Origin: an uncultured Eubacteriales bacterium
Lineage (GTDB): Bacteria > Bacillota > Clostridia > Peptostreptococcales > Anaerovoracaceae
Assembly: GCA_902778565.1 (NCBI GenBank)
Contig: CACYYH010000002.1
Span: forward strand, 69,659-117,927
Reading direction: 5' to 3'
DNA: 48,269 nt
Under the pieces are notes generated by a model, which saw only the letters and a list, made by a program, of their open reading frames with translations, ran no database searches and was not told the DNA's origin. The position numbers and the translations under genes were made by a program. Below, piece by piece: positions 4,160-42,262 of the stretch (its first letter is position 1; the number at the start of each line of letters is the position of its first letter).

Positions 4160-4188
4160 TTTAACTTTTTGAAATGTAGGTATATAAT
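4160..4188 (+). promoter_or_regulatory. Promoter of the NrdD-tail protein
   Basis: TATAAT at 4183-4188 with TTTAAC at 4160-4165 and a 17-base spacer, in a T/A-rich tract. It predicts an untranslated leader of roughly 110 bases before the ATG at 4309. Confidence 0.65.
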
Positions 4189-4238
4189 ACATACCGGAGC
4201 GCAAAATATGGTTGTTCTATGGCTGAAATTTCGCCGAA

Positions 4239-4255: not shown

Positions 4256-4308
4256 CCGTTAACAGGAAACCAAATTTAATTCAACATAGATCGAGGAGGG
4301 AGAACGAC

Positions 4309-4587
4309 ATGAGTGTATCGATCACAGGAAACGCAACCGCAAGAGAAAGCCTTGCATACGTAGGATACTTAGAGAAGAAGTACAACAGAAAACTCAAGAG
4401 CCTGGACATCAATCTGAACGGAGATTATGCAGATCTTAACTATGAATTCGAGAAGGCTCCCTTCGAGAGGATCAGAAGGATCACCGGATATCTGGTAGGA
4501 ACCATGGACCAGTGGAACGACGCTAAGCGTGCCGAAGAACATGACAGAGTAAAGCACGACACCAGCACAGGATTTGAAAAGCTTTGA
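4309..4587 (+). CDS. Stand-alone NrdD-type glycyl-radical tail protein
   Basis: This 92-residue protein begins MSVSITGNATARES. Its last ~40 residues match the extreme C-terminus of anaerobic ribonucleotide reductase NrdD. RRITGYLVG at 56-64 aligns with the RVCGYLG glycyl-radical loop of E. coli NrdD, putting the candidate radical glycine at Gly60. WNDAKRAEEHDRVKH at 69-83 matches the tail that follows the radical. The zinc-binding cysteines that precede the loop in full NrdD are absent; the protein has no cysteine at all. I chose ATG 4309 because GAGGAGGG sits just upstream at 4293-4300; an upstream in-frame ATG at 4219 has no such site. It is transcribed alone between two terminators. By analogy with GrcA/YfiD, which replaces the damaged radical domain of pyruvate formate-lyase, a repair role is possible but inferred. 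Confidence 0.75.
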   Translation: MSVSITGNATARESLAYVGYLEKKYNRKLKSLDINLNGDYADLNYEFEKAPFERIRRITGYLVGTMDQWNDAKRAEEHDRVKHDTSTGFEKL

Positions 4588-4618: not shown

Positions 4619-4645
4619 AGGCGCCGGCATCAGCCGGCGCCTTTT
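4619..4645. terminator. Bidirectional terminator
   Basis: GGCGCCGGC (4620-4628) and GCCGGCGCC (4633-4641) form a perfect 9-bp stem with a 4-base loop. A-rich sequence precedes it and TTTT follows, so it can end transcription from both sides: the NrdD-tail gene and cysK. Confidence 0.9.
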
Positions 4646-15529: not shown

Positions 15530-15619
15530 CCATGTTCTTCACTCAGGCAGGGAAATCAAATAATCCTCAGCCGAAAATCACAGTTTTCATATACACCGTA
15601 TGAAAGATCCATCAAAAGA

Positions 15620-15770
15620 CAAGCAGTTCTCCTGACTTAAGTTCACAGCGTGCGGCGCCTTCCCAAGGTTTACTCAGTGACATTATGCCGCCCGCTCCCT
15701 ATTACAGTGACGGGATCGTACCGGATTCACACCGGTTTCTCTTTTCATCCGCGTTAAGCGGAACTTGTCT
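15620..15770 (-). promoter_or_regulatory. Cobalamin riboswitch (1)
   Basis: Read on the minus strand the element holds the conserved pieces of the B12 class in order: AAACCGGTGTGAATCCGGTA, then GATCCCGTCACTGT, GTCACTG, a GGGAAGGCG core, and AAGTCAGGAGAACTGC at the 3' end (15621-15639). It lies between a strong promoter and a terminator ahead of the LysO-like gene. It therefore predicts repression of that exporter by a cobalamin. Confidence 0.92.
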
Positions 15771-15800
15771 CTTCGTGTTATTAATATGTATTCTTGTTAA

Positions 15801-22669: not shown

Positions 22670-22761
22670 AAATAATAAACGAACTATAGAAAACTAGCCT
22701 TCGTAACACGTCAAGTCCTATTCATTACCGGTGCCATACCTCGTGACACATGAGATAACGT

Positions 22762-22920
22762 ACAGAAAGCAGGTCTCCTGGCTCATGATGTAAGGGCTTC
22801 CGCCTTCCCGGAGATTCTCCAGTGACGTAATGGAAGTCCAAATCATTTACAGTTACGGGATAGCACAGGATTCTCACCTGTTTCCCTTTTAAAGCAATTC
22901 CGGTGGAAATTGCTACTCCC
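22762..22920 (-). promoter_or_regulatory. Cobalamin riboswitch (2)
   Basis: On the minus strand: AAACAGGTGAGAATCCTGTG, ATCCCGTAACTGT, GTCACTGG, GGGAAGGCGG and GAGCCAGGAGACCTGC (22769-22784), in the order of the cobalamin class. It lies between a strong promoter and a terminator ahead of the binding-protein gene. It represses corrinoid uptake and cbiK when B12 is sufficient. Confidence 0.95.
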
Positions 22921-22965
22921 TGTATAATTTTAATTTTGGTTAATTGATTAACAATTTATGTTTTG

Positions 22966-42076: not shown

Positions 42077-42110
42077 ATTCACGTAATTTGAATATGATTT
42101 TTAACTGTAT

Positions 42111-42262
42111 GACGGGATCAGGAGAGACCGCGCGGACATGCGCCTCGCGCGGCGCCGAAGGGGCAAATGATATAAACTCTCAGGCAAAAGGACTGATCAT
42201 CGGACAGTTCCCTGGAGAGCGCATGCGCACCGACGAGGATCAATCTTTCAGGTAAAAGGACA
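42111..42262 (+). promoter_or_regulatory. Tandem glycine riboswitch
   Basis: Aptamer 1 has GGAGAGACCGCGC, GCGCCGAAGGGGCAAA and CTCTCAGGCAAAAGGACTG (about 42120-42197). Aptamer 2 starts CCCTGGAGAGCGCATGCGCA and ends CTTTCAGGTAAAAGGACAGG (about 42210-42262). Both match the glycine class, the second with a shorter middle arm. It precedes a terminator and the glycine cleavage genes, so glycine should turn them on. Confidence 0.95.

Follow-up and report, generated by a model that had tools for sequence, protein, structure and literature searches.

Does the class III ribonucleotide reductase NrdD have a replaceable glycyl-radical domain of its own? The question is raised by a gene for a 92-residue protein in a stretch of 48,269 nucleotides (the window, by which we mean the whole of the DNA analysed) from an uncultured bacterium of the Eubacteriales. 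According to PMC8683613 two such spare parts have been validated, namely YfiD (GrcA) of Escherichia coli and Y06I of phage T4, both of which rescue cleaved pyruvate formate-lyase (PFL); the same source regards others as possible and, in 2021, stated as open whether glycyl radical enzymes besides PFL have spare parts. Where PMC12338860 deals with GrcA, it treats it with PFL only. The reductase data set described in PMC9531940 is without sequences under 400 residues, and a family of such small proteins is therefore invisible there. In our literature search, confined to non-subscription papers other than preprints, a free-standing NrdD loop was named in no title or start of an abstract.

The gene, its product and the organism's reductases

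The gene and the signals around it are as follows:
4161..4188, plus strand: promoter-like site TTAACT-16-TATAAT with 10 of 12 matches, weak since the region scan found 2 such sites against 1.7 expected by chance
4199..4214, no strand assigned: weak NrdR-box-like site 1, 5.0 of 27.1 bits in the matrix scan, identical in the related locus L003
4241..4256, no strand assigned: weak NrdR-box-like site 2, 4.5 bits in the matrix scan, with a 26-bp spacer from site 1
4294..4299, plus strand: strong ribosome-binding site AGGAGG, from the sequence
4309..4587, plus strand: gene for a free-standing NrdD-type glycyl-radical domain of 92 residues (open reading frame, profile search, alignment, dN/dS)
4309..4461, plus strand: N-terminal part, residues 1-51, conserved in the long-form family and without known domain (alignment, Pfam and NCBIfam, dN/dS)
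4462..4557, plus strand: glycyl-radical domain, residues 52-83 (FERIRRITGYLVG...DRVKH), on PF13597 positions 532-562
4486..4488, plus strand: codon of Gly60, the candidate radical glycine, which aligns with the radical Gly of 8p23
4620..4645, plus strand: terminator-like stem and T run 3' of the gene, recognized by eye and absent from the output of a terminator scan that requires 5 T

The reading frame runs from an ATG start to a TGA stop. In profile searches residues 51-83 of its product match positions 532-562 of the 562 positions of PF13597 with 33.3 bits (cut-off 26.2; E 2.9e-8), and this is the sole Pfam family matched at E up to 1. Likewise, the sole sequence recovered from the PDB with phmmer (E up to 1) was the NrdD of Prevotella copri (8p23; E 4.6e-8, residues 49-83). 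Gly60 is aligned there with the Gly of ITGYLVG (residue 715 in the deposited numbering), and assuming a 4-residue offset we take this Gly to be the published Gly711; in class III reductases Gly alone is found at the radical position (PMC11528403). Both searches agree with the sequence-only reading of this DNA, which had recognized an NrdD radical loop with Gly60 as the candidate radical residue. Its further observation that the catalytic domain and the zinc cysteines are absent also stands: the protein contains no cysteine, and therefore lacks the four-cysteine zinc site that precedes the loop, and PF13597 positions 1-531 are unmatched, with neither a catalytic barrel nor an active-site cysteine found in it. 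The same reading had called residues 1-45 foreign to the NrdD tail, and indeed no Pfam or NCBIfam model matches them. The N-terminal part, residues 1-51, is a probable docking part. The PFL-type glycyl-radical domain (PF01228) gave no match in the protein, and neither in Pfam nor in NCBIfam was a dedicated entry found for the family to which it belongs. The neighboring genes are presumably glmS-like and cysK-like, as judged from the sequence. Rfam searches at gathering scores recovered no riboswitch near the gene; elsewhere in the window they identified two cobalamin riboswitches on the minus strand and one glycine riboswitch on the plus strand (15605-15783, 22751-22935 and 42109-42205).

The genome of the window's organism (1.78 Mb, 90% complete) has two PF13597 matches, which are the 92-residue protein and a complete nrdD of 784 codons on another contig, C40, that is followed by nrdG. 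This complete NrdD (PF13597, TIGR02487) keeps its own loop and zinc cysteines, and shares the loop domain with the small protein at 31 of 32 residues; the small protein is without the ATP-cone, barrel and zinc cysteines of NrdD. A search of this genome for class I and II reductases (PF02867) gave no match, and NrdD therefore seems to be its only reductase. The genome additionally codes for NrdR and for one PFL-type glycyl-radical domain besides NrdD.

A clostridial family linked to nrdD, nrdG and NrdR

A genome scan confirmed at least 557 relatives, which may include ordinary NrdD ends; in the best 80 of these, which were kept, the match lies inside a short frame of at most 242 codons in every case. 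The family is widespread and clostridial. A parallel scan of viral sequences returned 61 loci, of which 44 have a short frame (one of them, L104, being the end of an interrupted NrdD), four match only within a long NrdD frame and 13 gave no frame match in the ORF search. Among the candidates rejected as free-standing loops is a C. difficile phage match (H7) located inside an annotated complete nrdD gene; a second such match (H6) is listed with the same kind of annotation. Two architectures were recognized, namely a long form, mostly of 86-104 residues and resembling the window's protein, and a mini form without its N-terminal half, of about 49-68 residues in phages and with frames of 58-73 codons in bacteria. 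In these assignments three loci (L042, L044, L082) were given no start, the exact motif string being absent, and three others (L011, L092, L096) were given starts that are too short. When 36 long forms, of which 26 are cellular and 10 viral, are aligned, 19 positions prove invariant, 17 of them in the loop domain, and Gly60, on whose conservation the sequence-only reading had staked its proposal, is kept in all 36. Furthermore, the dN/dS of the loop domain in 13 ortholog pairs is 0-0.11, and that of the N-terminal part 0.04-0.48 (12 values, one pair being saturated), with 10 of the 12 values at or below 0.13 and the value of 0.48 coming from a pair with one synonymous difference. These low ratios imply purifying selection and hence that the 92-codon frame is not a chance ORF. 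Among the more unusual members, one genome (G263) carries four long-form copies (L261-L264), one of them near a Mu-type transposase, and a viral contig (L083:21-5273) has a long form beside genes for DNA polymerase III alpha, RusA and a PD-(D/E)XK nuclease, with no match to nrdD within the fetched stretch.

Among 243 sampled genomes of the class, 219 of which have PF13597 matches, we found the long form in seven (the window's own, G068, G082, G126, G196, G215 and G228) and the mini form in six (G103, G144, G178, G195, G212 and G242). Two further candidates were discarded: in G020 the loop is part of an NrdD end that contains an insert and lies on a broken contig, and in G036 it is joined to a broken second NrdD. 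A sample of 80 genomes of the organism's own family divides into 40 without an alignment match, 24 with the long form, 15 with an NrdD tail alone and one (G338) with the mini form. The 24 long-form genomes comprise 19 with a matching complete NrdD tail, two with a loop-less NrdD and three in which no NrdD was found. As the free-standing form is missing from 15 of the 34 own-family genomes that have a matching, complete NrdD tail, the protein is dispensable. The sequence-only reading had further expected orthologs to occur in genomes that encode NrdD. This was borne out for 46 of 50 named carriers (50 of the best 80 of the at least 557 loci), in which the NrdD core was found, with a contig-end fragment in one more; it was not for the remaining three of the 50 or for the three in the own-family sample, all of them draft genomes. 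The carriers without any NrdD thus number six, the three from the own family being 92, 83 and 73% complete. Among the NrdDs of the 50 named carriers 41 reach the end of the profile and five are loop-less (G257, G258, G263, G265 and G291).

The genomic context of the family points to the nrd genes. The order nrdD-long form-nrdG is seen in three genomes (G082, whose locus L014 has identical coordinates; G266, locus L030; and G196), and in G082 and G196 nrdR comes next. All 13 class-sample genomes with a separate loop have an NrdG match, 12 over the curated cut-off, and an NrdR match over the cut-off. We also scanned leaders with an NrdR matrix built from nrdD leaders, using the NrdR consensus as seed (30 of 30 training leaders have a site; L228 was skipped). 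NrdR-type sites of at least 8 bits were found in 36 of 76 small-gene leaders, against 3.1 of 76 in shuffled leaders and 2 of 69 in control stretches, which leaves 40 of the 76 without such a site; these leaders come from loci L002-L082 (the best 80 of at least 557) with at least 80 residues and at least 120 nucleotides upstream. The commonest distances between site starts are 31 and 33 bp. Spacers between NrdR boxes are reported to be 15-16 or 25-26 bp, with repression in E. coli at 26 +/- 1 bp (PMC12051234). In the window itself, sites 1 and 2 are the sole NrdR-spaced pair of at least 4.4 bits in 48 kb, a threshold chosen after the sites were seen, and an NrdR-spaced pair arose in 3 of 5000 shuffled versions of the window's leader. 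The pair is kept in L003, and not in L004 or L008.

NrdDs without a loop beside separate loops

In nine long-form genomes (G215, G228, G257, G258, G263, G265, G291, G295 and G365) we found an NrdD that lacks the loop. These chains keep a remnant of the FERIRRIT strand and end there or within about 15 residues, which replace the radical Gly (e.g. FERIPRL in G215, FERIERILP in G365 and SERVARIKA in G228), and no loop-like words were found in three frames of the 600 nucleotides that follow them. The gene nrdG comes directly afterwards in G215 and, as judged by eye, in four others of the nine. Cutting of the chain by oxygen at the radical glycine is reported for glycyl radical enzymes, among them NrdD (PMC12288474), and the nine chains stop near where such a cut would fall. 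In cleaved PFL the strand before the cut is required for rescue by YfiD (PMC8683613), and by analogy the strand remnants of the nine loop-less NrdDs may serve a parallel requirement.

Loop-less NrdDs co-occur with a separate loop. Principal NrdDs that end at profile positions 530-541, away from contig ends, occur in eight class-sample genomes, and all eight are among the 13 with a separate loop. No such end was found in class-sample genomes without a separate loop among the matches listed, which cover second copies in part; 15 + 75 genomes were additionally inspected, and the alignment search could overlook a separate loop that has diverged strongly. Likewise, in a check on the own-family sample whose outcome was predicted beforehand, five carriers had no matching NrdD tail, and the NrdDs found in two of them were both loop-less. 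Some genomes have further reductases: G295 also encodes a complete NrdD of a different type, G265 has a second NrdD and G215 a class I/II match, and the loop-less NrdD may therefore be unneeded there. In G228 (100% complete) the loop-less NrdD is the only reductase found, and PF01228 gave no match in this genome. A tree was built from NrdD cores truncated ahead of the zinc domain and includes seven of the nine loop-less chains; L227 was dropped because it shares its genome with L182. Two of the losses lie well apart in this tree, one in G215 inside the own-family clade and one in a group formed by G228, G257, G258, G263 and G291. Here G291 is sister to seven complete NrdDs, and five losses are needed if a lost loop is never regained; the placement of G265 is unsure, and the automatic label count ignores complete rows. 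Divergent second NrdD-like copies that end near profile positions 502-504, before the zinc site and the loop, are present in G145 (C13:2921-4417), G178 (L197) and G229 (C17:110317-111915).

A comparable division is associated with the mini form. In the six genomes with the mini form the NrdD chain extends past the zinc domain only by a tail of a different kind; the next gene is that of the loop, and in five of the six nrdG comes after it. In G195 and G212 (both 99% complete) no reductase other than such a loop-less NrdD was found; the same applies to G178, except that a second NrdD-like copy is present there and it, too, stops early. G103 encodes a further, loop-bearing NrdD, and G144 and G242 have class I/II matches. 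As a loop-less NrdD is the sole reductase found in the nearly complete genomes G195, G212 and G228, the loop appears to act in trans, as it would have to in at least these three organisms if their assemblies are complete. Contig C12 of G242 has extra loop copies (L267, L268) beside genes for a serine recombinase and a DNA adenine methyltransferase, which suggests prophages. Split nrdD genes were also recovered on the phage contigs L116, L126, L128 and L131, as judged by the NrdD ends, and on L132-L136, as judged by match ranges alone. The isolated Eggerthella phage EL753P1 (OP172808.1) has an nrdD without a loop; downstream of it lies loop sequence in two frames (interrupted), with one annotated 42-residue hypothetical protein. 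In L131:3390-5164 the RRVTG part of the loop gene is separated from YLVG by an insertion, probably an intron inside the radical loop, that contains an ORF for a LAGLIDADG_2 endonuclease (PF03161, E 1.2e-15); the L132-L136 matches are alike, L131 alone having been read.

Reductases in several pieces have precedents. The class II enzyme is split into NrdJa and NrdJb, one of them the catalytic chain and the other a C-terminal chain that carries zinc and IscU-like domains (PMC9669993), whereas here the radical loop alone is separate. Six cases of phage nrdD in several pieces are counted in PMC3653736, where split reductase genes are tied to introns, inteins, homing endonucleases and unexplained fragmentation; the parts of that paper on split genes mention no conserved gene for a separate loop.

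A probable spare loop for NrdD

The sequence-only reading had proposed that the protein is an NrdD counterpart of the GrcA/YfiD spare domain. The operons, the NrdR-type operators, the co-occurrence with NrdG and the NrdDs that are loop-less where a separate loop exists all speak for this proposal, and because of them we regard NrdD as very probably the partner. It appears likely from these sequence comparisons that the 92-residue protein is a GrcA/YfiD-like replaceable glycyl-radical domain for NrdD. Like the window's protein, GrcA/YfiD and Y06I are small, consist of a C-terminal copy of the radical domain and an unrelated N-terminal half, are phage-borne and are meant to replace a tail cleaved by oxygen (PMC8683613). 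That the NrdD of the window's organism retains a built-in loop counts against a need for a spare part there; the gene for GrcA/YfiD likewise accompanies an intact enzyme that has a loop. The loop of GrcA/YfiD is of the PFL type (PF01228) and that of the small protein of the NrdD type (PF13597). Unlike GrcA/YfiD, the small protein is linked to nrdD, nrdG and nrdR, and is the sole remaining loop in some relatives.

We propose that oxygen would cut the active NrdD chain at the radical glycine, and that a fall in dNTPs would then release NrdR, so that nrdD and the small gene would be made together, as the operators suggest. The small protein may dock on the cut NrdD, anchored by its N-terminal part and with its loop in the position of the one that was lost; NrdG would set the radical on Gly60, from which it would pass to the active-site cysteine. 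In some relatives and phages, whose NrdD has lost its own loop, the small protein would be an apparently obligatory subunit. The step with the strongest support here is the action of a separate loop in trans with NrdD, as the gene complements suggest; the rescue of oxygen-cleaved NrdD in the window's organism is inferred. By a slight preponderance we further favor a two-part NrdD whose disposable loop subunit began as an NrdR-controlled repair part and took over in several lineages and phages, where NrdD would be born in the shape of the oxygen-cleaved enzyme.

It is possible that the protein is instead an everyday second source of the loop, acting in trans on intact or nascent NrdD so as to provide more active sites, with no repair involved; genomes with a complete NrdD would then be en route to a split enzyme. 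Split enzymes do occur in bacteria and phages, co-regulation by NrdR fits constant co-production, and 19 of the 24 own-family carriers retain a complete NrdD. However, P. copri NrdD has its loop either inside the barrel, where it is buried in the active monomer, or mobile (PMC11226230), and therefore a second loop would enter only if the first were gone or mobile; persistence beside a complete NrdD in dozens of genomes also suggests a distinct role. We accordingly consider an everyday subunit unlikely. A regulator that damps the reductase, either as a rival of NrdD for NrdG or by occupying the active site, would also fit the operon and operator linkage to nrdD and nrdG, but a decoy needs neither the radical Gly nor the whole loop, both of which are invariant, and NrdDs that lost their own loop beside a separate one would be left unexplained, which makes such a role very improbable.

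Service to another glycyl radical enzyme, e.g. as a true GrcA for PFL, is largely refuted and barely credible: the window's organism does have its one PFL-type domain, but the small protein has no PF01228 match, the carrier G228 has none either, in G196 the NrdD tail was the only such domain found, and the linkage recovered is to nrd genes. A non-functional leftover of a duplicated nrdD end, which would account for the coverage of NrdD's last part only, is refuted by the purifying selection; the gene's own start, ribosome-binding site and conserved N-terminal part, the short frames in all of the 80 best loci and the Gly in 36 of 36 also speak against it.

The spare loop resembles that of its own NrdD more than those of others, with identities of 0.90 and 0.83, respectively, over 41 pairs (0 of 20000 permutations as high; G256, from which no NrdD end was taken, is outside the comparison). 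Special matching by gene conversion was considered and rejected, since the observed identity of 0.895 compares with 0.92 predicted from NrdD relatedness in 30 genomes and shared descent accounts for the closeness. The length of the tail after VKH also correlates between spare and own NrdD (Spearman 0.71, 40 pairs, leaving aside G279, in which the NrdD frame runs on), which is equally open to shared descent.

The family thus provides a widespread candidate spare part for an enzyme that makes DNA precursors. In its carriers NrdD is often the only kind of reductase found, 10 of the 13 class-sample carriers being without a class I/II match. Action of the loop in trans is directly testable because the activity of a natural loop-less NrdD should depend wholly on the small protein. 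One consequence for annotation is that an nrdD gene is not necessarily broken when its product stops short of the loop. If the proposal is true, it would suggest a reason for the carriage of loop genes by phages, and would give strict anaerobes a route to restore DNA synthesis after exposure to air.
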